The notes under the pieces were generated by a model that ran no database searches, was not told the DNA's origin, and was given only the letters and a program-made list of their open reading frames with translations. The position numbers and the translations under genes were made by a program. A stretch of 64,000 nt of DNA, from the NCBI RefSeq assembly GCF_900101465.1, contig NZ_FMZM01000004.1:173790-237789 (forward strand), written 5' to 3'. The stretch is from Nocardioides lianchengensis (lineage in GTDB: Bacteria > Actinomycetota > Actinomycetes > Propionibacteriales > Nocardioidaceae). Of this stretch, positions 10,883-38,530 are shown one piece after another (the stretch's first letter is position 1; the number at the start of each line of letters is the position of its first letter).

Positions 10883-13237
10883 GTGACGACGACGGCCACC
10901 ACCCCCCGCAGCAGGACCCTCCTGCCCGGCCTCGTCGAGCGTCTCGCCGCCGTGCCGGGCCGCGAGGACCGACTCACCCACGTCGAGGTGCTGCCGGCCC
11001 GGGCCGGCGTGCGCGCCGACTGGCCGGAGTGGGCCGCCGCCGAGGTGGTCGAGGCGTTCGGTCGCCGCGGCATCACCAGCCCCTGGCGTCACCAGGCGGT
11101 GGCCGCCGACGCGGCGCACGCGGGCCAGCACGTCGTGCTCGCGACCGGCACCGCCTCCGGCAAGTCGCTCGCCTACCAGCTGCCCGCGCTCTCCCGGGTC
11201 CGCGCCGCGCGAGGTGCGCGCGGCCAGCGCGGCGCCACGGTGCTCTACGTCGCGCCGACCAAGGCCCTGGCCCAGGACCAGCTGACCTCGTTGACGGGGC
11301 TCGGCCTCGACGTACGGGTGGCCACCCACGACGGCGACAGCCCGCGCGACCAGCGCGACTGGACGCGCGACCACGCCGAGTACGTCCTGACCAACCCCGA
11401 CATGCTCCACCGCTCGCTGCTCCCCGGCCACGCGCGCTGGGCGGCGTTCTTCGGCTCGTTGAGCTACGTCGTGGTCGACGAGTGCCACCACTACCGCGGC
11501 GTCTTCGGCGCCCACGTCTCCCACGTGCTGCGGCGACTGCGGCGGGTCTGCGCGTCGTACGGCGCGCACCCGACGTTCGTGCTCGCCTCCGCGACCGTCG
11601 CCGAGCCGGAGGTGGCGGCCGGCCGGCTCACCGGCCTCGACGTGCTGGCCGTGACCGGCGACGACTCCCCGCGCGGCCAGGTCTCGCTGGCCCTGTGGGA
11701 GCCGCCCTTCACCGCCCACACCGGCGAGAACGGCGCCCCGGTCCGCCGGGCCGCCTCCTCCGAGACCGCCGACCTGCTGGCCGACCTGGTCCTCGCCCAG
11801 GTCCGCACCCTCGCCTTCGTCCGCTCCCGTCGCGGCGTCGAGCACGTCGCCCTGACGACCGCCGAGCTGCTTGCCGAGGTCGACCCGTCCCTCCCCGGTC
11901 GGGTCGCGGCCTACCGCGGCGGCTACCTGCCCGAGGAGCGGCGGGCCATCGAGGCGGCGCTGCGCCGCGGCGACCTGCTCGGGCTGGCCGCCACCAACGC
12001 CCTCGAGCTCGGCATCGACGTCGCCGGCCTCGACGCCGTGCTGATGGCCGGATTCCCGGGGACCCGGGCCGCCCTGTGGCAGCAGCTCGGCCGGGCCGGC
12101 CGCGACGGCCAGGACGCGCTCGGGGTGCTCATCGCGCGCGACGACCCGCTCGACACCTACCTCGTCCACCACCCCGAGGCGCTGCTCGGGCAGCCGGTCG
12201 AGGCCACCGTCTTCGACCCCGGCAACCCCTACGTCCTCGGCCCGCACCTCTGCGCCGCCGCCCAGGAGATCCCGCTCACCGAGGCCGACCTTCCGCTCTT
12301 CGGTCCGGGCGCCCGCGAGGTCCTCGACGGACTGACGGAGGCCGGGCTGCTGCGCCGCCGCCCGCACGGCTGGTTCTGGACCGACCGTCGCCGCGCGGCC
12401 GACCTGGCCGACATCCGCTCCGCCGGCGGCGCGCCCGTCCAGCTGGTCGAGACCGGCACCGGCCGGGTGATCGGCACCGTCGACGCCTCCAGCACCCACT
12501 CGACCGCGCACGCCGGCGCGGTCTACGTCCACCGCGGTGAGACCTGGCTGGTCGACTCGCTCGACCTCGACGAGCACGTGGCCGAGATCCGCCGGGCGGA
12601 TCCCGACTACTCCACGTCGGCGCGCGAGGTCACCGAGATCACCGTGGTCGGCGAGCGCGAGCACCGCGACTGGGGCGGCTGCCGACTCTCGTTCGGGGAC
12701 GTCGACGTCAGCCATCAGGTGGTCTCGTTCCTGAAGCGGCGCCAGCCCAGCGGCGAGGTGGTCGCCGAGGTGCCGCTCGACCTGCCGGTCCGCACGCTTC
12801 GCACCGCCTCGGTCTGGTGGACCGTGCCCGGTCACGTGCTCGCTGAGTCCGGGCTCGCGGCGAGCGACCTGCCCGGCTCCGCCCATGCGGCCGAGCACTG
12901 CTCGATCGGACTGCTGCCGCTCTTCGCGACCTGCGATCGCTGGGACATCGGCGGCGTCTCGACCGCGCTCCACCCCGACACCGGGATGCTGACCGTCTTC
13001 GTCTACGACGGCCACCCCGGCGGCGCGGGCTTCGCCGAGCGGGGGTTCCGGGCCGCCCGGTCCTGGCTCTCGGCGACCCGTGAGGCGATCGCCTCCTGCA
13101 CCTGCCTGGAGGGCTGCCCCTCCTGCATCCAGTCGCCCAAGTGCGGCAACCAGAACAACCCGCTCGACAAGGCCGGCGCGACCGCTCTCCTCGACGTCCT
13201 GCTCGAGGGCGCTCCGCCGGACCTCACGGAGCAGTAG
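10883..13237 (+). CDS. DEAH/DECH-box helicase with C-terminal DUF1998 Zn-binding domain (YprA/MrfA type)
   Basis: This encodes 784 residues. Order: Walker [10 protein letters not shown] (about residue 92), VVVDECHH box, SAT motif, helicase C domain with [12 protein letters not shown] and [10 protein letters not shown], then a DUF1998 domain with the zinc cluster [17 protein letters not shown] near residue 740. Relatives include B. subtilis MrfA, a 3'-5' DNA helicase in mitomycin repair. In actinobacteria the gene is known as the helicase of the 'helicase/secretion neighborhood', next to tad genes, as here. GTG 10883 is chosen because CAGGAT sits seven bases upstream, fitting a leaderless transcript; an in-frame start further upstream cannot be excluded. 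Confidence 0.9.
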
Positions 13238-13246
13238 CCTCAGCGC

Positions 13247-13558
13247 ATGCTGCTTCTGGGTCTCATCCTCATCGGCGCCGGCGCGCTGGTCATCGTCGCC
13301 ACCGTCTTCACCGCCGAGATCGACGGACGACACCTCGAGGTCCTGGGCGTGACGGTGAGCCCGCTGGCCCTCTTCCTGCTCGGTGTCGGCGCCGGTCTGG
13401 CCGTCCTGTGGGGCTTCGGCATCCTGAAGTACGGCACCAAGCGCTCCCTGCGCCAGCGCCGGGAGTCGAAGAAGCTCGAGGAGCTGTCGGAGAAGCTCGA
13501 GATCGCCGACCGCGAGCGGCACCGCGACAACGACGACGCCGACCACGACCGCAGCTGA
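13247..13558 (+). CDS. Small membrane protein with two helices and charged tail
   Basis: This encodes 103 residues: a hydrophobic helix (about residues 2-20), a short polar loop, a second helix (about 40-60), then a long charged, probably coiled-coil tail (RQRRESKKLEELSEKLEIADRER). No Shine-Dalgarno is seen, but TAGCCT lies six bases before the ATG, consistent with a leaderless promoter inside the end of the helicase gene. Small proteins of this layout often sit beside actinobacterial helicase/tad loci. Function is unknown. Confidence 0.75.
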   Translation: MLLLGLILIGAGALVIVATVFTAEIDGRHLEVLGVTVSPLALFLLGVGAGLAVLWGFGILKYGTKRSLRQRRESKKLEELSEKLEIADRERHRDNDDADHDRS

Positions 13559-13582
13559 TCCACCCCGCACCGACCTGACCGC

Positions 13583-13930
13583 TCACGCCGGCCCGGCCCG
13601 GGCCTCGGCCTCCGGGTCGGTCGCGAGCACCCGCCACCGCGGCCCGTCGACGCGCAGGCCGACCGTGGCCTCGAACCCGTCGACGTCGCACCGGGTGATC
13701 TCCGCCCCGTTGGCGCCGGCCACCCGGTCCGCGGCCGCGCAGCCGTCCCCACCCTCGGCCAGCGCGGTGGCGGCCGCCAGCGCCGCCAGGTCGGCCGCCG
13801 ACTGCGCCGACCGGTGGGCCACGACCAGGGCCGCCACCGCGCCGAGCGCCGCCCCGAGGAGCAGCAGCACCCCGAGGAACGCCAGCGCCGGCACGGTGGC
13901 CGAGCCCCGCTCGTCGCGAACGCCGCTCAC
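13583..13930 (-). CDS. TadE/TadG-like pseudopilin-type protein (helicase/secretion neighborhood family)
   Basis: This encodes 115 residues. It begins RDERGSATVPALAF followed by one long hydrophobic helix, the layout of TadE/TadG-like minor pilins with a prepilin-like cleavage site after Gly. Glu at +5 is absent, which is unusual for a processed pilin. The periplasm-side domain has two cysteines (GDGCAAAD and ITRCDVD) that may form a disulfide. It is the last gene of the minus-strand tad operon and its ATG overlaps the previous stop by 4 bp. It matches the family of Rv3654c-type proteins by position and size. Role in secretion or pilus assembly is inferred. Confidence 0.8.
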   Translation of the reverse strand: MSGVRDERGSATVPALAFLGVLLLLGAALGAVAALVVAHRSAQSAADLAALAAATALAEGGDGCAAADRVAGANGAEITRCDVDGFEATVGLRVDGPRWRVLATDPEAEARAGPA

Positions 13931-14298
13931 GGCCCCTCCTCCTCGGCGGCGGCGACCGCCTCGGCCCGGACGGTGACCCCCGGCAGGAACCCGAAGAGCC
14001 CGCCCGGGCCGTGCACCTCCCCCGACGCGACCACCCGCACCTCGTCGCCGGAGCGACTCAAGGTGACCGTGGCTCCGGCCGGCGCCACCCGGCGTCCCCG
14101 GGCCACCGCCTCGCCCTCGGCGTCACCCCGGGCCGCGGCCCGGGCGGTCTCCCGCGCGGCGTCGACGACCCGGACCTGAGCCGCCCCCACCGCGAGGAGC
14201 CAGACCAGGCCGATGGTGACCGCGACCAGGATCGGCAGGGTCATCGCCAGCTCGGCCGTCGCCGCCCCGCGGTCGGTACGTCGGGGGCGGCGGGTCAT
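13927..14298 (-). CDS. TadE-like minor pilin
   Basis: This encodes 123 residues from ATG 14298. DRGAATAELAMTLPILVAV is a TadE-type N-terminus: Gly cleavage site, Glu at +5, then a transmembrane helix. A soluble mostly beta domain of about 80 residues follows. In Tad systems such proteins prime or cap the Flp fibre. It overlaps the pilin gene upstream and the next TadE-like gene downstream by 4 bp each, so translation is coupled. Confidence 0.83.
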   Translation of the reverse strand: MTRRPRRTDRGAATAELAMTLPILVAVTIGLVWLLAVGAAQVRVVDAARETARAAARGDAEGEAVARGRRVAPAGATVTLSRSGDEVRVVASGEVHGPGGLFGFLPGVTVRAEAVAAAEEEGP

Positions 14299-14498
14299 CC
14301 GATGCCCAGCAGGCCGAGCACGTGGTCGAACAGGGTCTGCAGCAGCTGGTCGCCGAAGCCGCCGGTCAGCATCTTGTAGAGCAGGCCCGCCAGGCCCGCT
14401 CCGGCCGCGGTGCCGACGGCGTACTCGGCGGTGGTGATCCCGCGCTCGTCGCGGACCGGGTGGACGGGCCGGGCGGGGGACGTGTGGTCGTCGTGCAT
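14295..14498 (-). CDS. DUF4244 Flp-like pilin subunit
   Basis: This encodes 67 residues, matching the DUF4244 (Rv3656c-type) family. After a 20-residue hydrophilic leader comes RDERG-ITTAEYAVGTAAGAG: prepilin peptidase site after Gly, Glu at +5, Tyr at +6 as in Flp pilins. A hydrophobic helix follows, ending LGLLGIG. A strong Shine-Dalgarno (AGGAGGAG) precedes ATG 14498. A 142-bp gap separates it from tadC and contains the 34-bp element at 14602, so the three pilin-like genes probably have their own promoter. No prepilin peptidase gene is in the window. Confidence 0.85.
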   Translation of the reverse strand: MHDDHTSPARPVHPVRDERGITTAEYAVGTAAGAGLAGLLYKMLTGGFGDQLLQTLFDHVLGLLGIG

Positions 14499-14601
14499 GA
14501 GGTCTCCTCCTCGTCGTGGCCACGGGGTGCGGCCGGTGGAACGAGCCTGCGGCGCGGACCGGGTACGGCGCCGCCCTCGTCGTCAGCCCTGTGGAACGTC
14601 G

Positions 14602-14635
14602 TGCCGGAGCAGCACCGGTGGACGGTTCGTGGCCC
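14602..14635. promoter_or_regulatory. Copy 1 of a 34-bp element shared by the two tad promoters
   Basis: This stretch matches 18418-18451 at 29 of 34 positions, with the exact core ACGGTTCGTGGCCC. It lies about 104 bp upstream of the pilin gene start, between that gene and tadC. It may be a promoter or operator common to both tad transcription units. Confidence 0.55.
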
Positions 14636-14640
14636 ATCGC

Positions 14641-15375
14641 TCACAGCCCGACCGTCCCGAGGAGCCCAGCGACGAGCGGCACGATGCCGATCAGCACGAA
14701 GGCCGGCAGCAGGCAGAGCCCCAGCGGGAGCGCGGCCTTGACGCCGACCGCCCGGGCACGGTCCTCGACCTCGGCGCGAGCGGTCGCGGCGAGCTCGTCG
14801 GCCAGCCGCTCGACCGACCGGACCACCGGCGCTCCGGAGACCTGGGCCCGCGCCAGCGCGCGGCCGAGCGGGCCCAGTGCGTCGTCGGCCGCCAGCTGCT
14901 CCCAGACCCGCACCGGGTCGGCGCCAAGCGCGAGCCGCGCGGCCACGGGCGCCAGCCGGTCCGCCGCGGCGCCGGGGAGCGCGGCGCACACCACGCCCAC
15001 CGCCTCGCCGGTCGCCGCGCCCGACCGGAGGGCCGACCCCAGCAACCCGACGACGTGGGGCAGGTCGGCGCGGGTCTGCTCCCGGCGCCGCCGGAGCTCC
15101 GCGGGCTCGGCCCGACCGATCACCACCCAGACCCCCACGCCGGCGACCGCGCCGGCGACGGGCCCCGCCGGACCACCGACGAAGACCGCGCCGGCCAGCC
15201 CCGCGAGCAGGCACCAGAGCGAGCGGTAGCGCAGCATCCAGTCGCGACCACCGTCCTCGGCGGGCGAGGGGACGGGCGGACCGTCCCGCAGCCGCGGCCG
15301 CGCCGGGAGCAGCAGGGCCACAGCCAGCGCAGCAGCGAGCGCCGACAGCGCCACGGTCCCCGGCACCGTGCTCAC
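14641..15375 (-). CDS. tadC: Type II secretion F-domain protein, TadC-like inner-membrane platform
   Basis: This encodes 244 residues with an N-terminal membrane helix, a pair of helices near residues 50-80, a cytoplasmic helical T2SSF domain (RRRREQTRADLPHVVGLLGSALRSG) and a C-terminal helix pair ending LLPAFVLIGIVPLVAGLLG. This is the standard TadC fold, which with TadB forms the platform for the TadA ATPase. GTG 15375 is used because it overlaps the tadB stop by 4 bp; open sequence upstream of it lies inside tadB. Confidence 0.82.
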   Translation of the reverse strand: MSTVPGTVALSALAAALAVALLLPARPRLRDGPPVPSPAEDGGRDWMLRYRSLWCLLAGLAGAVFVGGPAGPVAGAVAGVGVWVVIGRAEPAELRRRREQTRADLPHVVGLLGSALRSGAATGEAVGVVCAALPGAAADRLAPVAARLALGADPVRVWEQLAADDALGPLGRALARAQVSGAPVVRSVERLADELAATARAEVEDRARAVGVKAALPLGLCLLPAFVLIGIVPLVAGLLGTVGL

Positions 15376-16148
15376 CCGACCCGGTCGACGTCGCGGGCGA
15401 GCGCCTCGATCCAGGCCAGCCCGGCGACCCCGAAGCCGAGCCCTCCCGCGAGGCACGCCAGGCCGACCGGCTCGCCGAGCAGGAAGCCGAGCGGATCCCC
15501 GCCGGCGCCCGAGCCCATCAGCAGCGCGACCACCGGGAGGCCGGCGACCAACCGCGCCGTGGAACGGGCCGAGGCCAGCTCGCCGCGCACGACCCGTCGC
15601 GTCGCCTGGCCCGCCCGCAGCCGCTCGGCGACCCGGTCGACGGCCTCGGCCAGGCCCTGGCCGGTGCGGTGCGAGACCTGCCAGGCCGCCGCGAGGTGGC
15701 GGAGGTCGCCGGCGCCCGGCCGGCCCGCCACCTCGCGCCAGGCGCCGGGGACGTCGGCGCCCACCGTGAAGGCCCGGGCCACGGGATCGAGCTCGGGCCA
15801 GCCTGCGGCGGCCCGCGAGAGCGCGGGGCCGGGCGGCTGACCGACCCCCAGGTCACCGGCCAGCTGCTCGCAGGTCTCCAGTACCCGGACCGCCGTACGC
15901 TCCGCCGCCAGCCGCGCCCCGCGCTGGCGCCACAGCGCCGCGCCCGCGAACCACGCCGCGCTGGCGACGACCGCGAGGGCCAGCACCCGCGGTGAGGCAC
16001 CGGCCACCAGCACCACCGCCGGCAGGACGCCGAGCGGTAGCAGGGTGCGGACGCCCGGTCGTCGGTCGGGCGGGCGCGGGAGCCGGGCCGGACGACCGAC
16101 CAGCAGCCCGGCCGCGAGCGCGGCCGCGAGGACGGCGACGGCCGTCAC
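15372..16148 (-). CDS. tadB: Type II secretion F-domain protein, TadB-like
   Basis: This encodes 258 residues. Two N-terminal hydrophobic segments are followed by the cytoplasmic helical bundle (VRVLETCEQLAGDLGVGQPP, then LRHLAAAWQVSHRTGQGLAEAVDRVAERLR, a T2SSF hallmark) and two more helices. It pairs with TadC in the inner-membrane platform. It lies between tadA and tadC with 4-bp overlaps on both sides. Confidence 0.83.
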   Translation of the reverse strand: MTAVAVLAAALAAGLLVGRPARLPRPPDRRPGVRTLLPLGVLPAVVLVAGASPRVLALAVVASAAWFAGAALWRQRGARLAAERTAVRVLETCEQLAGDLGVGQPPGPALSRAAAGWPELDPVARAFTVGADVPGAWREVAGRPGAGDLRHLAAAWQVSHRTGQGLAEAVDRVAERLRAGQATRRVVRGELASARSTARLVAGLPVVALLMGSGAGGDPLGFLLGEPVGLACLAGGLGFGVAGLAWIEALARDVDRVG

Positions 16149-17308
16149 GACGCGTCCGCCAGGGCCCGCTCGAGCCGGGCCGCCGCCGGGCCCGTCACCT
16201 CGCGTCCGTCGGCCTCGAACCGTACGGCGGTCTCCATCCGCACCAGCCCGCCCTCGTCCCGAGCCGGGACCGCGACCTCCCGCAGCCGACGGGTGCCGTC
16301 CCGGTCCCGGACCAGGTGAAGGACCAGGTCGACGCCGGAGGCCAGCTGACTGTGGGCGGCGTGGCGCCCGAGCCCGGCGGCCAGGGCCAGCGCCTCCACC
16401 CGAGCGGGTACGTCGGCCGCGGAGTTGGCGTGCAGGGTGCCGCAGCCGCCCTCGTGGCCGGTGTTGAGCGCCGCCAGCAGGTCGACGACCTCGCCGCCCC
16501 GCACCTCGCCGACCACCAGCCGGTCGGGCCGCATCCGCAGCGCCTGGCGGACCAGCGTGCGGACGTCGATCGCACCGGCTCCCTCGATGTTGGCCGGGCG
16601 ACCCTCCAGCCCGACCACGTGCGGGTGGTCGGGCCGCAGCTCCGAGGCGTCCTCGACGACGACCAGCCGCTCCTCGTCCGGGACGGTCGCCAGCAGCGCG
16701 GCCAGCAGGGTGGTCTTGCCGCTGCCGGTGCCGCCGCTGACCAGGAACGCGAGCCGCGCGGCCACCACGGCGGCCAGCAGCCGGGCCGCTCCGGGACCGA
16801 GCATCCCGGCGCCGACCAGCCCGGTCACCGTGAACTGGCGCGCGCTGGGCACGCGGAGGGAGAGGACCGTGCCAGGCCGGGCCACCGGGGCCAGGACGGC
16901 GTGGAAGCGGGTGCCGTCGGCGAGCCGGACGTCGGCGTACGGCGAGGCGTCGTCGAGTCGTCGCCCGGCGGTGGCGGCCAGCCGCTGGGCCAGCCGGCGG
17001 ACCGCCTCGTCGTCGGGGAAACGTACGTCGGTCGCCTCCAGCCCGTCGCCCCGGTCGACGTGGACAGCGCCCGGACCGTTGACCAGCACGTCGGTCACGC
17101 CGGGCAGCCGGAGCAGCGGCTCCAGCGGCCCCGCGCCCAGGACGTCGCGCCGCAGCGCGTCGTGGACGGCCAGGACGGTCGCGTCGCCCACCGGCCGGCC
17201 GGCGCGTCGCAGGGCCTCGGCCACCCGGTGCGGCGTCAGGTCGCCGGCCCGGCTGACCAGGTCGTCGCGGACCGCCTCGAGGACGCCGGCCGGCAGGTCG
17301 GCCGTCAC
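16145..17308 (-). CDS. tadA: TadA/CpaF-type secretion ATPase
   Basis: This encodes 387 residues. N-terminal domain (ADLTPHRVAEALRRAG), then Walker A SGGTGSGKTTLLAALL, Asp-box VVVEDASELR, and MRPDRLVVGEVRGGEVVDLLAALNTGHEGG, the Walker B/His-box of GspE-type ATPases. It powers pilus assembly or secretion at the inner membrane. It belongs to the 'helicase/secretion neighborhood ATPase' subgroup by context. It overlaps the CpaE-like gene upstream by 4 bp. Confidence 0.9.
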   Translation of the reverse strand: MTADLPAGVLEAVRDDLVSRAGDLTPHRVAEALRRAGRPVGDATVLAVHDALRRDVLGAGPLEPLLRLPGVTDVLVNGPGAVHVDRGDGLEATDVRFPDDEAVRRLAQRLAATAGRRLDDASPYADVRLADGTRFHAVLAPVARPGTVLSLRVPSARQFTVTGLVGAGMLGPGAARLLAAVVAARLAFLVSGGTGSGKTTLLAALLATVPDEERLVVVEDASELRPDHPHVVGLEGRPANIEGAGAIDVRTLVRQALRMRPDRLVVGEVRGGEVVDLLAALNTGHEGGCGTLHANSAADVPARVEALALAAGLGRHAAHSQLASGVDLVLHLVRDRDGTRRLREVAVPARDEGGLVRMETAVRFEADGREVTGPAAARLERALADAS

Positions 17309-18351
17309 GCGGCGGCCCGGGTCAGGGCCATCCGGTCCAGGACCGCGCCGGCGCTCCGGCCCAGCGGCCCGCGCCAGGACCGCACCGGGCCGAGCCCGAG
17401 GTCGATCGCCTCGTCGAGCCCGCGCTGGTGGCCCATCTGGGTGAGCACGGGGACGCCGGTCGCCCGCGCCACCTCCGCGGCGTCGAGGCCGCTGCCGCGG
17501 ACCACCAGCCGGACCGCGCCCCGGTCGGGCAGCCGCCCGCAGACCCGACCGGCCGAGGCGACGCCGGCCACGGTCGGCGCGACCAGCACGAGCACCAGGT
17601 CGCAGCGGGCCGCGACCTCGTCGATCACCGGATCGGCCACCCGGGGCAGGTCGACGACGACCGTGTCGTGGCCGCGCTGGGCCGCCGAGAGGGCCTCGCG
17701 CACCGCGAACGCCTGGAGCGTGCCGCGGGAGCCGGCGTGCCAGGTCAGCGCCCCGACGCCGTCGCGGCGCGGCAGCGCTTCGCGCAGGGAGCGGGCGCTG
17801 AGCCGCCCGGTCGTCTGGCAGAGCGCGTCCCAGCGGATGCCGTCGCGCGACTCCACTCCCAGCACCCGGTCGATGCCGGGGCCGAGCGGGTCGGTGTCGA
17901 CGACGACCGCGGGACCGCCGCGGCCCGCGACCTGGCCGAGCGCGCAGGCGAAGGTGGTCGCCCCCGCCCCGCCGGACCCGCCGGTGACCCCGATCGTCAG
18001 GCCCCGGGCCGGCCGGTCGTCGCCGAGGTCGGTGAGGACCTCCACCAGCCAGGCGTCGGAGCGCGGCAGGTCCGTGACGCTCTCGGCGCCGACCTCGAGG
18101 GCCAGCCGGAACAGGCCGTCCGGAGAGGTGCCCCAGGACATCAGGTGCAGGCCACTGCGGCGGGGCGGGCCGAGGCGGGCCATCTCCAGGGCCAGGTCGG
18201 CCCCGAGCAGCACGAGCGGAGCCGCGGTCCAGGCGCGCAGCGCGGCGCCGACGTCGGAGGCGACCTCCGGGGTGACACCGGCGGCCGCGGCCAGCCGGAG
18301 CAGCTCGTCGAGGAGGGTGTCGTCGCGGGTGACGAAGAGGGGTGGGTTCAT
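17305..18351 (-). CDS. CpaE/Ssd-like septum-site-determining protein
   Basis: This encodes 348 residues. The N-terminal receiver-like domain lacks an obvious phospho-Asp. The C-terminal half is a ParA/MinD-type ATPase with the deviant Walker A region GVTGGSGGAGATTFACALG and a VVVDTDPLGPG motif. In this family (Rv3660c 'Ssd', CpaE in Caulobacter) the protein localises the secretion machinery or affects septation. ATG 18351 gives the conserved MNPPLFVTRDD start; an in-frame GTG at 18375 is possible but less likely. It is the first gene of the main tad operon, and the 34-bp element lies 67 bp upstream. Confidence 0.85.
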   Translation of the reverse strand: MNPPLFVTRDDTLLDELLRLAAAAGVTPEVASDVGAALRAWTAAPLVLLGADLALEMARLGPPRRSGLHLMSWGTSPDGLFRLALEVGAESVTDLPRSDAWLVEVLTDLGDDRPARGLTIGVTGGSGGAGATTFACALGQVAGRGGPAVVVDTDPLGPGIDRVLGVESRDGIRWDALCQTTGRLSARSLREALPRRDGVGALTWHAGSRGTLQAFAVREALSAAQRGHDTVVVDLPRVADPVIDEVAARCDLVLVLVAPTVAGVASAGRVCGRLPDRGAVRLVVRGSGLDAAEVARATGVPVLTQMGHQRGLDEAIDLGLGPVRSWRGPLGRSAGAVLDRMALTRAAA

Positions 18352-18417
18352 GGCGAGGACGTTCCCCGCCCGCACCGACCGGTCATGCCGGTCCCGGGTG
18401 GGCCTGGGGACGACGCC

Positions 18418-18451
18418 TGCGGGAGCGCCACCTGTGCACGGTTCGTGGCCC
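18418..18451. promoter_or_regulatory. Copy 2 of the 34-bp tad element
   Basis: Shares 29 of 34 bases with 14602-14635 in the same orientation. It lies in the divergent gap between the CpaE-like gene and the HAD phosphatase gene, 67 bp before the former and 32 bp before the latter. Confidence 0.55.
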
Positions 18452-18482
18452 GCTCCGTGCCTCGGGTCTCTACGATGAGGGC

Positions 18483-19280
18483 ATGACCGCCCCGGTGCCG
18501 AAGCCCACCGCCGCGTTCTTCGACCTCGACAAGACGATCATCGCCAAGTCGAGCACCCTGGCGTTCAGCAAGCCGTTCCAGGCCGGCGGACTGATCTCCC
18601 GGCGGGCCGTGCTGCGCTCGGCGTACGCCCAGTTCGTCTACCTGGTCGGCGGCGCCGACCACGACCAGATGGAGAAGATGCGGCAGTTCATGTCGCAGCT
18701 CTGCGCCGGCTGGGACGTCGCCACGGTCCGCGAGATCGTCGCCGACACGCTCCACAACATCGTCGACCCCCTCGTGTACGACGAGGCCGTCTCGCTCATC
18801 GAGGAGCACCACGCGGCCGGTCGCGACGTCGTCGTCGTGTCCGCGAGCGGGATCGAGGTGGTGGAGCCGATCGCCGAGATGCTCGGCGCCGACCTGGTCA
18901 TCGCGACCCGGATGGAGATCGCCGACGGCAAGTACACCGGCGAGATCGCCTACTACGCCTACGCCGAGGAGAAGGCTCGCGCCGTCAGCGAGCTCGCGGA
19001 GCGCCGCGGCTACGACCTCGCGCAGTCCTACGCCTACAGCGACTCGGTCACCGACGTCCCGATGCTCGCGGCCGTCGGTCACGCCTTCGCGGTCAACCCC
19101 GACCGCGACCTGCGGCGCGCCGCCCAGGACCGCGGCTGGCCGGTCCTGGTCTTCACCCGGCCCGTGACGCTGCGCAGCCGGGTCCTCCCGCCGCGACCGG
19201 CGCTGGCCGCGCTAGCCGTCGGCGGGGTCGTCGCCGTCGGCGGCGTCATCTGGGCCAACGCCCGCAAGCACCGCCGCTAG
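18483..19280 (+). CDS. HAD-IB family phosphatase (SerB-like)
   Basis: This encodes 265 residues. Motif I FFDLDKTII (DxDxT), motif II VVVVSASG, Lys motif near the centre and motif III AYSDSVTDVPML define an HAD subfamily IB phosphatase. Similar actinobacterial proteins (Rv3661, Streptomyces 'inhibition of morphological differentiation' protein) sit at the same place next to the CpaE-like gene. The substrate is unknown; phosphoserine-like or lipid phosphates are possible. A C-terminal hydrophobic helix (ALAALAVGGVVAVGGVIWA) suggests membrane attachment. TACGAT six bases before ATG 18483 suggests a leaderless transcript. Confidence 0.9.
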   Translation: MTAPVPKPTAAFFDLDKTIIAKSSTLAFSKPFQAGGLISRRAVLRSAYAQFVYLVGGADHDQMEKMRQFMSQLCAGWDVATVREIVADTLHNIVDPLVYDEAVSLIEEHHAAGRDVVVVSASGIEVVEPIAEMLGADLVIATRMEIADGKYTGEIAYYAYAEEKARAVSELAERRGYDLAQSYAYSDSVTDVPMLAAVGHAFAVNPDRDLRRAAQDRGWPVLVFTRPVTLRSRVLPPRPALAALAVGGVVAVGGVIWANARKHRR

Positions 19281-19342
19281 CGGCGAAGAGGCAGGAACCT
19301 TCCACCTGCCGCCACCCCCGCCGGCGCGCCTAGCGTCCCCGT

Positions 19343-19837
19343 ATGGAGACGATCGACGCCCCGGGTGAGCAGGGTCCGCAGGTCGGCCTGCGCCTCGTCA
19401 CGACGTACGACGACACGACGCGTCGCGTCGACCTCGCACTGCGCGGCAGTCACGGCCTGCTGGTCGAGGACGGCGTCGCGACCCCGTTCCCGGTCGAGCG
19501 GCTCTGGCCGGTGGTCCGCGACCTGCTGCCGCCGCTCGAGCACCTGCGCGCCGACCCGCCGTCGACGCGGCACCGCACCGGCGGCCCGCCCGGTCCGACC
19601 TTCGTCGAGGACTGCCGCGCGTCGGTGGTGCTGGCGACGGTGGCCGGCAGCGCCGAGTCCGAGCACGTCAGCGTCCGCACCTGGCTCGCGACCGGCACCG
19701 AGCTCTGGTCGGTCACGCCGGGCGCGTCCGGCAACGACGTCCGGCAGGCCCAGCCCGGCAGCCTCGCCGAGCTCCTCGTCTGGGACGTCACCGCCGCGAT
19801 GGAGGCCCTGGTCCGGGCCCTGGAGGCGGCGTCGTGA
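19343..19837 (+). CDS. Hypothetical protein, first gene of the WXG100-hydrolase operon
   Basis: This encodes 164 residues with no recognised domain. It is predicted soluble with alternating strands and a C-terminal helix (SLAELLVWDVTAAMEALVRALEAA). TAGCGT lies six bases upstream of ATG 19343, fitting a leaderless start. Its stop overlaps the GTG of the next gene by 4 bp, so the products are probably functionally linked. By position it could be a chaperone or accessory factor for the WXG100-hydrolase, as small proteins often are beside ESX-type substrates; this is inference only. Confidence 0.7.
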   Translation: METIDAPGEQGPQVGLRLVTTYDDTTRRVDLALRGSHGLLVEDGVATPFPVERLWPVVRDLLPPLEHLRADPPSTRHRTGGPPGPTFVEDCRASVVLATVAGSAESEHVSVRTWLATGTELWSVTPGASGNDVRQAQPGSLAELLVWDVTAAMEALVRALEAAS

Positions 19838-21177
19838 CCACCCTCGGGATGGACACCGACGCCGCCCGCAACGCCAGCAACGACCTGCAGGGCGGCGCCG
19901 ACCAGATCACCGGCCTGGCCCAGCGCCTCGACGGGCTGCTGATGCAGCTGGAGTGGAACGGCCCCGACGCCGAGCGGGTCCGGGCCAGCTGGCAGGAGCA
20001 GGAGCGCCGCCAGCTCGACTCCACCGCCGAGCACCTCACCTCGCTCGTCACCCTGATCCGCCAGGAGGCCGACGCCCAGGACCACGCCTCCGGCCAGGCC
20101 TCCGGTGGTACGACGGGCGGCGGCGTCGACGGCACCCTCGAGCAGGAGCAGGCCGACGGCGGGATCACCGGCTGGCTCGGCGCCCACCTCGGCGCGTTCT
20201 TCCAGGGCGTCGGCCGCACGCTCGACGGTGCCGGCGACCTGGTGGGCAAGCTCGGCGACGTCCTGTCCGGCGAGGACGTCCCGGTCGCCGCGATCGCCGC
20301 CAGCGCCCTGACCACGGTCGGCTCGGCCGCCGGCGCGATCTACAACGGCATCACCGGCGAGGACCAGGGCTGGTTCAAGGAGGGCCCGGGCCTGGCCGGC
20401 ACCCCAAGCGCCGTACCGACCGACCCGACGCAGGCCAGCCAGTTCCAGCCCGCGCTCACCACCCCCACCGACCTGCCGTCGCTGATGCAGGGCGTCTCCG
20501 ACGGCTACCAGGTCGGCGAGGGGCCGGGCAGCACCGGCGACGTGCGGATCACCCGCGTCGACAACGGCGGCACCCCGGCGTACGTCGTCGCGATCCCCGG
20601 CACCGAGAACTGGTCCCCGGCCGGCGGCGGCCAGCCGCGCGACCTCACCGCGAACCTCTCCCTGGTGGCGGGCAGCCCGTCGGCGGCGAGCGAGTCGGTC
20701 GAGCAGGCGATGCAGGCGGCGAACATCCCGGCCGGCTCCCAGGTGCTGCTCGTCGGCCACAGCCAGGGCGGCATCATCGCCGCCAACCTGGCCAGCGACC
20801 CCGCGTTCGTGGAGCGGTACGGCGTGACCAACGTGCTCACGTACGGCGCCCCGATCGACCACGTGGCCGTCGCGCCGGGGGTCGGCGTGCTGCAGGTCCA
20901 GCACGGTGCGGACGTCGTACCCCGCCTCGACCTGGGGGGCGTCGGCACCTCCCACCCGCAGGCGCCGACGGTGACCCTGGACAGCCCCGGCGGCTTCTGG
21001 CAGCCGGGCGTGAACCACAGCTACACCGAGTACGCCCAGTCGGTCCGCGACGAGCTCGGGGCCGACACCGACGCGGGTCGTATCCTCCGGGAGTACCAGG
21101 CCACGCTCGCGCCGTTCCTGGTCGGACCCGGGGGCTCGGCGAGCGCGGTGGACGTCCCGGTGAGCAGAGGAGACTGA
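19834..21177 (+). CDS. WXG100-like N-terminus fused to alpha/beta hydrolase
   Basis: This encodes 447 residues. Residues 1-90 form a helical hairpin with W41-N42-G43 at the turn, as in WXG100 proteins exported by ESX/type VII systems. A Gly/Gln-rich linker and a helical region follow. Residues about 220-430 look like an alpha/beta hydrolase or lipase: nucleophile elbow GHSQGG with Ser310, probable acid Asp360 (HGADVVP) and His395 (NHSYTEY). No Sec signal is seen, so export, if any, would use a WXG pathway; no EccC/EssC-type gene is in the window. Possible roles are a cell-surface lipase or an interbacterial effector. Confidence 0.8.
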   Translation: MTTLGMDTDAARNASNDLQGGADQITGLAQRLDGLLMQLEWNGPDAERVRASWQEQERRQLDSTAEHLTSLVTLIRQEADAQDHASGQASGGTTGGGVDGTLEQEQADGGITGWLGAHLGAFFQGVGRTLDGAGDLVGKLGDVLSGEDVPVAAIAASALTTVGSAAGAIYNGITGEDQGWFKEGPGLAGTPSAVPTDPTQASQFQPALTTPTDLPSLMQGVSDGYQVGEGPGSTGDVRITRVDNGGTPAYVVAIPGTENWSPAGGGQPRDLTANLSLVAGSPSAASESVEQAMQAANIPAGSQVLLVGHSQGGIIAANLASDPAFVERYGVTNVLTYGAPIDHVAVAPGVGVLQVQHGADVVPRLDLGGVGTSHPQAPTVTLDSPGGFWQPGVNHSYTEYAQSVRDELGADTDAGRILREYQATLAPFLVGPGGSASAVDVPVSRGD

Positions 21178-23397: not shown

Positions 23398-23479
23398 GGG
23401 GCACTCCCTGGGGGCGAACACCTCGCTCCACCCCCGGTATCGCCGGGATCAGGCGACGTTCGCCCCCGGGGAGTGCCCC
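23398..23479. repeat. 22-bp inverted repeat (GGGGGCGAAC element) between convergent genes
   Basis: Arms 23398-23419 and 23458-23479 pair with one mismatch around a 38-base spacer holding a smaller hairpin. The right arm covers the 3' coding end of the DUF559 gene. It probably acts as a two-way terminator. The same GGGGGCGAAC...GTTCGCCCCC arms with nearly the same spacing recur at 62860-62916, so this is a dispersed element. Confidence 0.75.
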
Positions 23480-24306
23480 GCCCCGATCCGACGCAGGCAG
23501 GCTCGGACCCAGTCCGGCTCGTGCATGACCTGCCACCAGGTGAACCGGAGCACCGTCCACCCGGCGACGACCAGGTCGGTGTAGCGGCGACAGTCGCTCT
23601 GGAACGCGTCCTTCCCCGCGTGGAACTCCCAGGAGTCGGCCTCCAGGACCAGCCGACGCTCGCGGTCGACCAGGTCGGGTCGCACCGTGCGGTCGCCGAG
23701 GTCGATCTCCCCCTGCGGCAGCACGTCGAGCCCGGCCTCGACGGCGAGACCACGCAGCACGGACTCGAACGTGTTGGCGGCCAACGGCGACGCGAGCTCG
23801 GCGACCCGGACCGCCCGGGCGGCGCCCTTGCCCCGCACGGCCCGAGCAGCGCGGACGACGAGCTCGTGGTCCACCCCCGCGCGCAGGGCGGAGTCGGCCA
23901 CGGCGAGCGCCTCCGGGAAGGCGCAGCGCCGGGCGCAGTCGACGACGGTGCGCACCGGCGAGGTCACGAACCCGGACTCCTCGGACAGGTCCGCCCAGAG
24001 GACCTGGGCGCGGCGCTCTGCGGGCACCTGCCGGTTGCGCGGCACCGTGACCCACGGCGACGACGGCGCGTGCGGGATCTCCCAGCCATGCAGCTGCGCG
24101 GCGCTCAAGTGCGAGGCCATGCCGCGCAGCTCGACCGCGCGTCGCAGCGCCCGGTCCGCGTCGGAGGTGCGGTAGCGCCCGCGTCCCACGCGGACGATGT
24201 CACCGCGTTCCTCAGCGAGACGAACCCGCTTGGGCGAGGTCAGCCGGACCAGTACGGCGGTCGTCGCCACGCCGCCCAGCTCGGCCATCGCCTCCAGGAC
24301 CTCCAT
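23449..24306 (-). CDS. DUF559 nuclease-like protein with AbiEi-type N-terminus
   Basis: This encodes 285 residues. The N-terminal 60 residues form a winged helix like the AbiEi antitoxin/transcriptional regulator domain (VLVRLTSPKRVRLAEERGDIVRVGRGRYRT). The C-terminal third has RPDLVDRERRLVLEADSWEFHAG..DCRRYTDLVVAGWTVLRFTW, a PD-(D/E)xK Vsr-like/DUF559 nuclease core. Proteins of this kind are very common in actinobacteria; their job is unproven, with phage defence or DNA repair proposed. The ATG at 24306 is divergent from the kinase gene. No partner toxin is adjacent. Confidence 0.8.
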   Translation of the reverse strand: MEVLEAMAELGGVATTAVLVRLTSPKRVRLAEERGDIVRVGRGRYRTSDADRALRRAVELRGMASHLSAAQLHGWEIPHAPSSPWVTVPRNRQVPAERRAQVLWADLSEESGFVTSPVRTVVDCARRCAFPEALAVADSALRAGVDHELVVRAARAVRGKGAARAVRVAELASPLAANTFESVLRGLAVEAGLDVLPQGEIDLGDRTVRPDLVDRERRLVLEADSWEFHAGKDAFQSDCRRYTDLVVAGWTVLRFTWWQVMHEPDWVRACLRRIGAGHSPGANVA

Positions 24307-24358
24307 CCGTCCACCCTCACGCGGATCCGCGGGCGACGCGCGCCGCTCTCCACAGGGC

Positions 24359-24374
24359 GGTGATCGGGGTCACG
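24359..24374. promoter_or_regulatory. Candidate Crp-family operator upstream of the LytS-type kinase operon
   Basis: GGTGATCGGGGTCACG matches TGTGA-N6-TCACA at 8 of 10 positions and is a GTG-N8-CAC palindrome. It lies 18 bp before the start of the four-gene kinase-regulator-symporter unit. Confidence 0.45.
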
Positions 24375-24391: not shown

Positions 24392-25510
24392 ATGGGTCGG
24401 GCCTGGCGACGTACGCACCTCGGGAGCGAGTCGGACCGCGCCACCTTCCGGACGCTGCACACCGCGTCGCTGGCCAGCCCGGCGCTGCGGGAGGGATTGA
24501 CCACCACCAGCGCGGAGCGCTCGATCCGGCACCTGCGCGCGCTGCTCGGCACCCCCGCGCTGGCGCTGACCGACACCGCCGGGCCGCTGGCCTGGGACGG
24601 CGGCGGCCAGCAGCACCACGAGCGTCGTACGGCGGCGCTGGCGGTCGCGACCATCGAGGCCGGCGGGACCCGCAGCTTCGATCGGAGCGAGGTGGGCTGC
24701 GAGGTCGGCGGCTGCCCGATCCGGACGGCGATCGCCAGCCCGCTGGTGGTCGACGAGCGGGTGGTGGGGACGCTGCAGGCGTTCGCGCCGTCCCCGACGG
24801 CCGGGCTGGCGCGGGCCACCGACGAGGTCGCGGGATGGGTGTCGGGACAGCTGGAGCTCGCGGAGCTGGACGCGAGCCGGACCCGGCTGATGGAGGCCGA
24901 GGTCCGCGCCCTGCGGGCGCAGATCAGCCCGCACTTCATCTACAACTCGCTCGGGGCGATCGCCAGCTTCGTGCGGACCGACCCCGACCGGGCCCGCGAG
25001 CTGCTGCTGGAGTTCGCCGACTTCACCCGCTACTCGTTCCGCCGGCACGGCGAGTACACGACGCTGGCCGAGGAGCTGCGGTCCATCGAGCGCTACCTGC
25101 TGCTCGAGGAGGCGCGTTTCGGTGACCGGCTGCGGGTCACCCTGAACGTGGCGCCGGAGGTGCTGCCGGTGGTCGTGCCGTTCCTGTGCATCCAGCCGCT
25201 GGTCGAGAACGCCGTGCGCCACGGGCTGGAGGGGCGCGGCGAGGGCGGGCACATCCGGATCAGCGCGCGCGACCAGGGCCAGGAGGCGGTGATCGAGGTG
25301 GAGGACGACGGGATCGGCGAGGACCCCGAGCGGGTACGACGGGCGCTGGCCGGCGACGCCTCGCTCGACTCGGTCGGCCTCGGCAACGTCGACGCCCGGC
25401 TGCGCAACGCCTACGGCGACGAGCACGGGCTGATCGTCGAGACCGCGCCCGGAGCCGGCACACGGGTGGTCGTGCGGGTGCCCAAGTTCGCGCCGGGGGT
25501 GAGCGTGTGA
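24392..25510 (+). CDS. LytS/YehU-type sensor histidine kinase
   Basis: This encodes 372 residues. A GAF-like sensor domain (about 20-155) includes CEVGGCP, two cysteines that might bind metal or sense redox state. A His_kinase domain of the LytS family follows: RAQISPHFIYNSLGAI with phospho-acceptor His181, FTRYSFR, then HATPase with VENAVRHGLEG and GIGLGN-like motifs. It has no membrane segment, so it senses a cytoplasmic signal. Its stop overlaps the regulator start by 4 bp. ATG 24392 is the best start, although the ribosome site is poor. It probably controls the symporter in the same operon. Confidence 0.88.
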   Translation: MGRAWRRTHLGSESDRATFRTLHTASLASPALREGLTTTSAERSIRHLRALLGTPALALTDTAGPLAWDGGGQQHHERRTAALAVATIEAGGTRSFDRSEVGCEVGGCPIRTAIASPLVVDERVVGTLQAFAPSPTAGLARATDEVAGWVSGQLELAELDASRTRLMEAEVRALRAQISPHFIYNSLGAIASFVRTDPDRARELLLEFADFTRYSFRRHGEYTTLAEELRSIERYLLLEEARFGDRLRVTLNVAPEVLPVVVPFLCIQPLVENAVRHGLEGRGEGGHIRISARDQGQEAVIEVEDDGIGEDPERVRRALAGDASLDSVGLGNVDARLRNAYGDEHGLIVETAPGAGTRVVVRVPKFAPGVSV

Positions 25511-26217
25511 AGGTCCTCGTGGTCGACGACGAGCGGCCGGCCCTGGACGAGCTGGCCTACCTGCTCGGGCAGGACCCCCGGGTGGCCGAGGTGCTGACCT
25601 GCGACAGCGCGACCGAGACGCTGCGGGTGCTGCAGGAGATCGAGGTGGACGCACTGTTCCTCGACGTGCAGATGCCGGGCCTGAGCGGGCTCGAGCTGGC
25701 CCAGGTGCTGGCCCGCTTCAAGGAGCCGCCGCCGATCGTCTTCGTGACCGCCCACGAGGAGCACGCGGTCGAGGCGTTCGAGCTGCGGGCGGTCGACTAC
25801 GTCCTGAAGCCGGTGCGCGCGGACCGGCTCGCCGAGGCCGTACGACGGATCGCCGACGGCGCCTCCGACCGTGGCCCGGCCGGCGACCTGCAAGTGCCGG
25901 TCGAGCTGGGTGGGGTGACCCGGTTCGTGGCCCGGTCGACGATCTCGCACGTCGAGGCGCAGGGCGACTACGCGCGGCTGCACACCGCCGACGGGTCCCA
26001 CCTGGTCCGCGTCCCGCTCTCGCAGCTGGAGGAGGAGTGGGCGCCGGCCGGGTTCGTCCGGATCCACCGCTCGCTGCTGGTCTCGCTGGCCCACGTGGAC
26101 GAGGTGCGGATGGACGCGGGGCGGTGCACGGTGGTGGTCGCGGAGGCCGAGCTGCAGGTCAGCCGGCGGCACACCCGGCAGCTGCGGGACCTGCTGCTGA
26201 AGCGGGCCGGGTCGTGA
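25507..26217 (+). CDS. LytTR-family response regulator
   Basis: This encodes 236 residues. Receiver domain: VVDDE, phospho-acceptor Asp53 in LFLDVQMPG, VTAHEEHAVEAF and Lys in VDYVLKPV. LytTR DNA-binding domain from about 135 (ISHVEAQGDYARLHTADGSHLVRVPLSQLEE and FVRIHRSLLVSL). It should receive phosphate from the kinase encoded just upstream and bind promoter repeats. The start GTG 25507 lies in the 4-bp GTGA overlap. Confidence 0.92.
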   Translation: MKVLVVDDERPALDELAYLLGQDPRVAEVLTCDSATETLRVLQEIEVDALFLDVQMPGLSGLELAQVLARFKEPPPIVFVTAHEEHAVEAFELRAVDYVLKPVRADRLAEAVRRIADGASDRGPAGDLQVPVELGGVTRFVARSTISHVEAQGDYARLHTADGSHLVRVPLSQLEEEWAPAGFVRIHRSLLVSLAHVDEVRMDAGRCTVVVAEAELQVSRRHTRQLRDLLLKRAGS

Positions 26218-34071: not shown

Positions 34072-36368
34072 GCGGGGGTCTCGCCGGTGGTTGACGTGTG
34101 AGAGAAGCGAGCCTCGAAACCCGGTGACCCGAGAGTCGGCCCCGATCCAGGTCGCTGGTGGGCTGCGGGGATCTCGATACGCTCGCTGGCGCTCGCTACT
34201 CGACCAACGACAGCGCGCTCGCTCGCGCTCGCTACTCGACCAACGAGCCCTTCGTTGGTCGAGTAGCCGTCGCGAGGGACGAGCGACGGCGTATCGAGAC
34301 CCACCTCCGCCGCACACACCTTGAACTCCGGCATCCGCGAGGACGGGTCCAGCGCGTCGTTGGTGAGCCGGTTGGCACCGACCCAGTGGAACGGCACGAA
34401 GATCGTGTCCGGTCGGATCGTGTCGACGATCCGCGCGGGCGCGCGCAGCGACCCGCGCCGGGTGGTCACCATGACCGGCTCCCCGTCGCGGGCGCCGATC
34501 CGGGCAGCGAGCATCGGGTGCAGCTCGACGAAGGGGCCGTCGTCGGGGAGGTCGCGGACCCGGCGGGTCTGGGCGCCGGACTGGTACTGCGCCAGCACCC
34601 GGCCCGTCGTCAGGTGCACGGGGTAGTCGGCGTCGGGCTGCTCGGCCGCGCCGGCGTGCTCGACGTCGACGAAGCGGGCCCGGCCATCGGGGGTGGCGAA
34701 CGAGTCCGCGAACATCCGCGGGGTGCCGGGGTGGTCCTCGGCGGGGCACGGCCAGAAGACCCCGTCCTCGGCGCGGATCCGGTCGTAGGTGATGCCCGCG
34801 TAGTCCGCGCGCCCGCCGGCCGAGGCGAGCCGCAGCTCGGCGAACGCCTCCTCGGGGTCGGTCGGGAAGGCCGCCGTCGATCCCAGCCGCGACGCCAGGC
34901 CGGCGTACACGTCGAGGTCGCTGCGGACGCCGTCGGGCGGGGTCACGGCGCGCTCGCGCAGGATCACCCGGCCCTCGAGGTTGGTCATGGTGCCGCTCTC
35001 CTCGGCCCACTGGGTCACCGGCAGCACGACGTCGGCCATCGCGGCGGTCTCGCTGAGCACGATGTCGGCGACCACCAGCAGGTCGAGCGCGGCGAGCCGC
35101 TCGGTGACGCGGGTGGCGTTCGGCGCGGAGACCACGATGTTGGAGCCGAACACCAGCAGGGCCCGCGAGCCGGTGCCCAGCGACTCCAGCAGCTCGTACG
35201 CCGACAGCCCCTTGCCCGGGATCGACTCCGGATCGACGCCCCACACCCGCGCGACGTGCTCGCGCGCGGCCGGGTCGTCGATCATCCGGTAGCCGGGCAG
35301 CTGGTCGGACTTCTGCCCGTGCTCGCGGCCGCCCTGGCCGTTGCCCTGCCCGGTCAGGCAGCCGTAGCCGGCGTGCGCCTTCCCCGGCATCCCCAGCGCC
35401 AGCGCCACGTTCAGCCAGCCGAGCACGGTCGCCGTGCCCTGGCTGTGCTGCTCGGCGCCGCGGGCGGTCAGCACCGTGACCGTCCCGGCGCCGGCGAGCA
35501 GGCCGGCCAGCGCGCGCAGCTCCCCCGCCGACACCCCGGTCACCCGCTCGACCCGCTCCGGCCACCAGGCCGCAGCGGTACGACGGACCGCGGCGAAACC
35601 GGTCGTGCGCGACGCGACGTACTCCTCGTCGACCGCGCCGGCGGCGTCGAGCAGGTGCAGGACGCCGAGGGCCAGCGCCAGGTCGGTGCCGGGCACCGGC
35701 TGGAGGACCGTGTCGGCCCGGGCCGCGGTCGCCGTACGGCGGGGGTCGATCACCACGACGTGCCCGCCGCGCTCGCGGAGCCGGTCGAGGTGTCGCGCGG
35801 CCGGCGGCATGGTCTCGGCCAGGTTGGAGCCGACCAGCACCAGCACGTCGGTCCGCTCGATGTCGGCCAGCGGGAACGGCAGCCCGCGGTCGATCCCGAG
35901 GGCCTGGTTGGCGGCCGACGCGGCCGACGACATGCACCAGCGCCCGTTGTAGTCGATCCGGCTGGTCCGCAGCGCGACCCGGGCGAGCTTTCCGAGCAGG
36001 TAGGCCTTCTCGTTGGTCAGCCCGCCGCCCCCGAAGACGGCGACCGTGTCGGGGCCGTGCGCCTCCTGCAGCGTCCGGAGGCGGGTGGCCACGACGTCGA
36101 GCGCCTCGTCCCACGACGCCGCCCGCAGCTCGCCGGTCGCCCGATCGCGCAGCAGCGGCGTGGTCAGCCGCTCGCGGTGGCCGCGGAGCCCGGTGGCCGT
36201 CCAGCCCTTGCGGCACAGCGCGCCCTCGTTGACCGGGAAGTCGCGCTCCCGGACTTCCAGCCGGCGGCTCCTGCTGGAACCTGCTTGCCCCGAGGAGGCG
36301 AGGGACGAGCCGACTCGAAGGGTCATGCCGCACTGCAGGGAGCAGTAGGGGCAGTGGGTGTCGGTCAA
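34068..36368 (-). CDS. nasA: Assimilatory nitrate reductase catalytic subunit with repeat-derived C-terminal tail
   Basis: This encodes 766 residues. An N-terminal [4Fe-4S] motif HCPYCSLQCGM...GALCRKGW is followed by molybdopterin domains (FGGGGLTNEKAYLLGKLAR, NGRWCMSSA). It reduces nitrate to nitrite using a bis-MGD Mo cofactor. The normal family C-terminus is reached at RMPEFKVCA; about 75 extra residues follow, encoded by repeat families B and A in frame (VGRVASASER twice, GSPGFEAR), before the stop that overlaps the next gene by ATGA. The tail may be harmless or reduce function. The TTG start at 36368 is chosen because it immediately precedes the Cys motif. Confidence 0.9.
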   Translation of the reverse strand: MTDTHCPYCSLQCGMTLRVGSSLASSGQAGSSRSRRLEVRERDFPVNEGALCRKGWTATGLRGHRERLTTPLLRDRATGELRAASWDEALDVVATRLRTLQEAHGPDTVAVFGGGGLTNEKAYLLGKLARVALRTSRIDYNGRWCMSSAASAANQALGIDRGLPFPLADIERTDVLVLVGSNLAETMPPAARHLDRLRERGGHVVVIDPRRTATAARADTVLQPVPGTDLALALGVLHLLDAAGAVDEEYVASRTTGFAAVRRTAAAWWPERVERVTGVSAGELRALAGLLAGAGTVTVLTARGAEQHSQGTATVLGWLNVALALGMPGKAHAGYGCLTGQGNGQGGREHGQKSDQLPGYRMIDDPAAREHVARVWGVDPESIPGKGLSAYELLESLGTGSRALLVFGSNIVVSAPNATRVTERLAALDLLVVADIVLSETAAMADVVLPVTQWAEESGTMTNLEGRVILRERAVTPPDGVRSDLDVYAGLASRLGSTAAFPTDPEEAFAELRLASAGGRADYAGITYDRIRAEDGVFWPCPAEDHPGTPRMFADSFATPDGRARFVDVEHAGAAEQPDADYPVHLTTGRVLAQYQSGAQTRRVRDLPDDGPFVELHPMLAARIGARDGEPVMVTTRRGSLRAPARIVDTIRPDTIFVPFHWVGANRLTNDALDPSSRMPEFKVCAAEVGLDTPSLVPRDGYSTNEGLVGRVASASERAVVGRVASASERIEIPAAHQRPGSGPTLGSPGFEARFSHTSTTGETPA
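34083..34145. repeat. Repeat family A, half unit inside the nasA 3' end
   Basis: Contains a diverged GGTTGACGTG outer arm, then GAGCCTCGAAACCCGGTGAC and GAGAGTCGGCC, shared with copies at 38406 and 58505. It is translated on the minus strand as the GSPGFEAR part of the NasA tail. Confidence 0.75.
34170..34302. repeat. Repeat family B cluster inside the nasA 3' end
   Basis: Three family B arms: ATCTCGATACG...TACTCGACCAACGA (34171-34209), a partial direct copy to 34246, and an inverted copy CGTTGGTCGAGTAGC...GTATCGAGACCC (34252-34302). The outer arms pair to give a long hairpin. The whole cluster is read through in frame in nasA without a stop. Confidence 0.8.
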
Positions 36369-38405: not shown

Positions 38406-38456
38406 CGCTGGTTGAGGTGCGAGCGGAGCGAGCCTCGAAACCCGGTGACCCGACCG
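38406..38456. repeat. Third, partial family A unit before the GIY-YIG gene
   Basis: Starts exactly like the tandem units but switches after CCTCGAAACC to the GGTGACCCGACCGTCGG type seen at 34083 and 58505. It forms an inverted pair with the copy at the end of the GIY-YIG gene. Confidence 0.8.
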
Positions 38457-38530
38457 TCGGCGCCGAGAGGTCCTCCACAGCCCCAGTCGACGTCGTTGCC
38501 ACGGCCCGAGCACCCGGGAACGCTTCAGGC

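Follow-up and report, generated by a model that had tools for sequence, protein, structure and literature searches.

In Nocardioides lianchengensis (assembly GCF_900101465.1, contig NZ_FMZM01000004.1), the tad locus consists of two units, one beginning with cpaE and the other with a flp-like pilin gene. Within the 64,000 nucleotides analysed here (positions 173,790 to 237,789 of the contig, the window), a repeat of 34 bp stands upstream of both units. Comparing sequences, we consider it likely that this repeat is box 1 of a two-box operator that controls a regulon for natural transformation (competence) and DNA recombination. A switch for natural transformation has long been sought in actinobacteria, and this operator is probably its mark.

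When the intervals 14602-14635 and 18418-18451 were compared directly, exactly 29 of the 34 bases were identical in the same orientation. Both are intergenic: the first lies in the gap that separates tadC from the flp-like gene (14499-14640), the second in the gap that separates cpaE from a divergent HAD gene (18352-18482). The exact 14-mer core was found in only two places in the 5.29-Mb genome of N. lianchengensis (the home genome), which are these two gaps; with one mismatch there were 3 matches, all within genes. On the minus (coding) strand the repeat is composed of GGGCCACGAAC, containing a GGSCCAC half, then box 1 and part of the spacer. The near-identical non-coding element before both tad units, as described in the earlier note, is real, but its extent covered only the first half of the operator, and box 2 falls beyond both intervals. 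An Rfam search of positions 13000-20000 matched no known structured RNA. By inspection, the LexA/SOS box (a GAAC-N4-GTTC palindrome) is absent at both sites and the ComK box (AAAA-N5-TTTT pairs) is absent from both tad gaps.

The upstream gaps of cpaE and of the flp-like gene were collected from about 60 Nocardioides and compared for conserved elements. The operator consists of two direct-repeat boxes with the consensus CGTCCACAGG, 27-29 bp apart. Box 1 is preceded by GGSCCAC, with a CCAC-to-CCAC distance of 11 bp, and the CC of this half is 98-100% conserved. Counted from the start of box 2, a -10-like NANNNT follows at 48 bp (about 38 bp beyond box 2), at equal distance in the cpaE and flp operons; in the flp gaps the A and T of the -10-like CAnnCT are 95-100% conserved. 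A two-box score of at least 15 of 20 was reached by 46 of the 55 distinct cpaE gaps and a score of at least 16 by 39, compared with 2.0 and 0.2 after dinucleotide shuffling. For the flp gaps the corresponding numbers were 20 and 18 of 27 (shuffled: 1.6 and 0.2). The sequence around the operator diverges between species while the two-box arrangement stays. The suggestion of a probable cis-regulatory element at both tad units is borne out by this conservation among relatives.

The home genome was searched with a sequence-only profile trained on 46 tad sites from other species only. This yielded 15 matches at E<0.0013, where the E-values are rough and the gene calls at the loci come from a simple codon model. 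Among the targets were the tad genes cpaE and flp (one site each), the competence-type operons comEA-comEC-holA and yraN-comM-dprA-xerC, and for recombination and repair recA, ssb, a second ssb and DUF4192//dinB. Four AbiEi-like genes were also found, one via a partial match only; their name is tentative, since the matches to AbiEi_4 and MTES_1575 were below the Pfam cut-offs and one of the four genes was unmatched. The remaining matches precede a gene for an M23 peptidase and one for a small secreted protein beside a secreted GmrSD_C/HNH-type nuclease, and one partial match has no assigned gene. A promoter dedicated to the tad locus, as had been proposed, is ruled out, since 13 of the 15 significant sites lie elsewhere than at tad genes. 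The genome scan had been expected to find mainly tad-related genes and found instead mostly genes for competence, recombination and DNA processing. Although this expectation fails, the result points to a larger regulon and not to an artefact. As expected of a competence regulon, a single operator stands before DNA-uptake and DNA-processing genes (com, dprA, ssb, recA and pilus genes).

In 101 Nocardioides genomes, 100 of which have a cpaE homologue, the exact pattern GTCCACAGG-N18-21-GTCCACAGG gave about 105 matches and the reversed control 1. Examination of 90 of these sites placed 1 within a called gene and found, for 80, a start codon at most 260 bp away on the expected strand. The start-codon distances fall into two sharp clusters, 50-54 nt and 89-95 nt after box 2. 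Recurrent targets, the home genome included, were ssb (15 sites), a second SSB family (3), dinB (10) / DUF4192 (9), recA (2), yraN (2), comEA (7), cpaE (6), flp (5) and the AbiEi-like (13), HNH-type (9) and M23 (7) genes. Since the exact-box pattern skews base frequencies, logos and comparisons were drawn mainly from the cpaE/flp set.

These results contradict two simple explanations of the repeat. Chance likeness of two GC-rich gaps could be argued because 19 pairs of 34-mers in the window attain 29/34, most of the others belonging to a family of dispersed repeats or to coding segments that recur. The conservation across about 60 Nocardioides relative to shuffled gaps and the ratio of about 105:1 over the reversed pattern leave this explanation with practically no weight. 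A dispersed repeat or mobile element lying by accident before both tad units could be argued from the repeat families that exist in the window and from the near-identical copies that some genomes carry at multicopy nuclease genes. However, the flanks diverge, the orientation and the start-codon distance are fixed, and the sites are nearly absent from genes and belong to a specific gene set, which makes such an origin very improbable.

Across the class, profile matches were obtained in 69 of 148 genomes and 46 of 81 genera; weak matches in large GC-rich genomes may be due to chance, and several showed no box pair. The sites inspected precede recA, ssb, cpaE, yraN, DUF4192, AbiEi-like, DUF222/HNH-type and Uma2 genes (families numbered f28, f33, f9, f30, f38, f6, f20 and f21). 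In genomes G240 and G025 there are many dispersed copies of DUF222/HNH (13E12-type) genes with two boxes, and in G240 a TGTCRGTGG element follows the boxes. In Nocardioides and also outside its family, in f20, two-box sites precede genes for Uma2-type putative endonucleases.

We infer that the operator acts in transcription and that the programme is competence, because the profile trained on tad sites finds comEA, recA, ssb, ssb2, yraN-comM-dprA and dinB//DUF4192. In Micrococcus luteus, transformation requires Tad pili and ComEA/EC (PMC4322843, PMC12849477), and the comEA/EC promoter is inducible (PMC12849477). A regulator would bind the two head-to-tail CGTCCACAGG boxes and control promoters without a good -35. 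Co-regulation of the Tad pilus, ComEA/EC, ComM-DprA, SSB, RecA and DinB would allow the machines for DNA uptake and recombination to be made together.

The boxes lie at about -88/-79 and -60/-51 relative to a predicted start about 7 nt past the -10, and there is no good -35. A regulator acting from upstream is suggested by these positions, the poor -35 and the fixed spacing. Two classes of targets may be distinguished: comEA, cpaE, DUF4192, M23 and the putative nucleases would be leaderless-looking, with a start about 51 bp after box 2, whereas flp, ssb and recA would have a leader of about 40 nt and a start about 92 bp after box 2.

Between the boxes and the -10, the sequence GTCRG occurs 22-24 nt after box 2 at ssb (14/18), DUF4192/dinB (7/10), recA (2/2), HNH-type (4/9), cpaE (12/45) and flp (4/19) sites, where 1% is expected, and is scarce or missing at comEA (0/7), AbiEi-like (2/15) and M23 (1/7) sites. 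GTCRG is the core of the mycobacterial PafBC/P1 element, tTGTCRgtg-8 nt-TannnT (PMC5656591). Single-stranded DNA activates PafBC, which adapts sigma A to P1-type promoters (PMC11804915). Home recA reads TTGTCGGTG-8-TAGCGT. The P1 consensus fits recA and most ssb promoters and partly the cpaE promoter of the window, and it is absent at the window flp and at comEA. The home genome holds a pafB-pafC-like pair in a pafB-pafC-tatA-tatC arrangement. At many recA, ssb and dinB-side promoters and at the window cpaE, this -26 element would add DNA-damage induction. The repair genes would probably combine damage induction with the two-box signal and comEA would respond to the two-box signal alone. In the home recA promoter (G000:C17:93253-93331) a LexA box GAACACGTGTTC, the two boxes and the PafBC-type element all lie within about 110 bp.

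The whole set might instead be a DNA-damage regulon of the mycobacterial PafBC type, not a competence regulon, with the two boxes as an accessory part of PafBC promoters. The frequent GTCRG at recA, ssb and DUF4192/dinB, the LexA-flanked recA and the pafB-pafC-tat genes would agree with this, but the comEA, most AbiEi-like, most M23 and the window flp sites have two boxes without the -26 element. Moreover, no upstream box pair appeared in the passages on PafBC that were read. We regard this explanation as quite improbable.

As the binder of the boxes we tentatively favour a small HTH_17 protein encoded beside a SAF/CpaB-like gene, which by synteny would be the orthologue of Mlut_14660. This protein is the leading candidate because of the M. 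luteus mutants, the shared divergent gene pair with boxes and a likeness to BldC. Almost all ethyl methanesulfonate (EMS) mutants of M. luteus with a raised comEA/EC promoter had changes in Mlut_14660 or next to it. This gene encodes a small HTH_17 'excisionase-family' protein and is divergent from a SAF/CpaB-like gene, whose deletion lowered transformation 10^4-fold (PMC8467076). The same HTH_17//SAF divergent pair is present in the home genome (G000:C2, about 98.85 kb), where the gap contains two CTCTCCACAGGC boxes 15 bp apart; the chance of two TCCACAG there is about 2e-5. The proposed orthology is drawn from domain, annotation and gene order. A synteny search in the fetched regions of four other genomes did not find the HTH_17 orthologue. 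Over 54 amino acids the home protein and the home BldC share 39% identity, and head-to-tail binding to asymmetric direct repeats is described for BldC (PMC5859096).

Two further candidates were rejected. A second protein with a DnaA_C domain (G000:C11:326733-326921) has neighbours that look phage-derived, and extra copies are sporadic in the genus. For the LytS/LytTR pair of the window (24392-26217) the two-box match is weak, with the boxes 38 bp apart, and a solute symporter is its neighbour. Phage-like proteins with one to three DnaA C-terminal DNA-binding domains were seen in several Nocardioides. A second CpaB/SAF-type gene of the home genome (G000:C4:11807-12448) adjoins mscL-like and FmdB-like genes and has a single box upstream.

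Several points weigh against a competence regulon under such a regulator. Some targets are not competence genes (the M23 peptidase, the AbiEi-like proteins and the small secreted protein). Natural transformation of Nocardioides is not documented in the open literature searched. The two boxes in the HTH_17 gap of the home genome are 15 bp apart, not 28. The M. luteus mutants were de-repressed, which suits a repressor better than an activator (PMC8467076). Finally, the core of the boxes also fits DnaA.

In the main rival explanation, the boxes are DnaA boxes and DnaA is the regulator, tying the competence and repair genes to the replication state. The operator and the Nocardioides oriC have the core TCCACA in common, with TCCCCA tolerated, and the counts in oriC of Nocardioides are 116 TCCACA (10 expected) and 32 TCCCCA (11 expected). 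The actinobacterial DnaA box is TT(G/C)TCCACA and the weak box of Caulobacter is TCCCCA (PMC4285127). Box 2 is close to the oriC boxes and often reads TTGTCCACA in family f20. However, the operator boxes match the DnaA 9-mer in the core and differ in the first two bases: box 1 favours C at the T position of DnaA (5' CCG/TCG), and a 5' TT occurs in 11/102 operator boxes and 32/139 oriC boxes. A G follows TCCACA in 86/102 operator boxes compared with 84/139 in oriC (p 6e-5), and the oriC has no direct TCCACA pair at 26-30 bp spacing. Control by DnaA appears unlikely to us.

Table 1. Features of the tad locus and a possible further site, with positions in the window
Feature	Position	Strand	Basis
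GGGCCACGAAC, conserved 5' half (GGSCCAC) before box 1, cpaE operator	18441..18451	-	CC conservation
Box 1, cpaE operator, CGTGCACAGG	18431..18440	-	sequence, gap comparison
Box 2, cpaE operator, CGTCCCCAGG, 28 bp from box 1	18403..18412	-	held-out profile match 18358-18452, 49.6 bits
GGTCGGTG, PafBC/P1-like -26 element, 8 nt before -10	18373..18380	-	P1 consensus tTGTCRgtg-8nt-TannnT, PMC5656591
GAACGT, putative -10 (NANNNT), near enough to ATG for leaderless mRNA	18359..18364	-	cpaE/flp alignment
cpaE/tadZ-like gene, first of unit 1	17305..18351	-	weak ParA-type ATPase match
tadA, secretion ATPase (T2SSE)	16145..17308	-	domain match
tadB (T2SSF)	15372..16148	-	domain match
tadC (T2SSF)	14641..15375	-	domain match
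GGGCCACGAAC before box 1, flp operator	14625..14635	-	sequence
Box 1, flp operator, CGTCCACCGG	14615..14624	-	sequence, gap comparison
Box 2, flp operator, GTTCCACAGG, 27 bp from box 1	14588..14597	-	profile match 14543-14635, E 1.4e-5 (window)
CAGGCT, putative -10, flp unit	14544..14549	-	conserved A and T in flp gaps
Flp-type pilin-like gene (Pfam DUF4244), first of unit 2	14295..14498	-	domain match
tadE-like gene	13927..14298	-	domain match
tadG-like gene	13583..13930	-	domain match
Possible box-2-only site, CCTCCACAGC, 49 bp before small gene 38531-38893	38472..38481	+	profile match 38462-38524, E 0.0016

The small gene behind the possible box-2-only site (Table 1) was read by eye as a GIY-YIG nuclease, and the -10/start geometry of its site is as in the operator. 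A dispersed repeat ends just upstream of this site, at the expected position of box 1. The dispersed repeat family with GAGCCTCGAAACCCGGTGACCC has several copies in the window (34088-34140, 38058-38460, 38873-39090 and 58534), and a CTCGAAACCC stretch similar to it sits just upstream of the comEA boxes. At 24299-24367 (+), two boxes 38 bp apart lie between a divergent AbiEi-like gene (23449-24306, -) and the LytS-like kinase/LytTR pair (+ strand).

The competence regulatory cascade in M. luteus and the Actinomycetota was stated to be unidentified in January 2026 (PMC12849477). A search of open-licence papers to 2026 found no description of the operator and its regulator. Competence regulons as such are already known. 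Now that an operator is defined, targets are listed and a regulator is proposed, actinobacterial competence control becomes directly testable. Through the sequence signature, transformation would be linked to the Tad/Flp pilus in this group, and natural transformability of Nocardioides is predicted. Several multicopy families of putative nucleases also gain a first functional context. It is conceivable, as a more speculative extension, that an Actinomycetes-wide competence regulon stands under a BldC-like HTH_17 regulator (the Mlut_14660 orthologue) with its own boxes, often joined to the PafBC damage-sensing element. DNA uptake, pilus assembly and recombination would then be one programme, to which the multicopy AbiEi-like, HNH (13E12-type) and Uma2 nuclease genes would also belong as hitherto unrecognised members acting on incoming DNA.

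The sequences show the operator itself, how it is conserved, which targets it has and that its geometry is fixed, and on these points it can be compared with known systems. In mycobacteria, PafBC (P1, RecA-NDp) promoters have the TGTCRG(T/C)G-8-NANNNT core that is also found at recA, ssb, dinB-side and some cpaE sites. The promoters described here differ in their two upstream boxes, and the -26 element is missing at comEA, at M23 and at most AbiEi-like sites. DnaA boxes share the TCCACA core, but the operator differs by its preference for a 5' C and a 3' G, by the fixed 28-bp direct pair and by the fixed distance to the -10. The candidate regulator resembles the MerR-like BldC family in being of the HTH_17/excisionase type and would likewise use direct repeats. 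BldC sites, however, are AT-rich 9-bp repeats, AATTXXXX(C), and such direct repeats were not found in the box consensus CGTCCACAGG with its 28-bp spacing. Competence regulons of other phyla are controlled through the ComK box, the ComX/CIN box or CRP-S/Sxy, and we know of no involvement of ComK, ComX or Sxy here. As in those regulons, one operator is common to com, dprA, ssb, recA and pilus genes, but its sequence and geometry differ: the direct repeats here are GC-rich, lie upstream of the promoter and are 28 bp apart, and the pilus is of the Flp/Tad type instead of a type IV pseudopilus.
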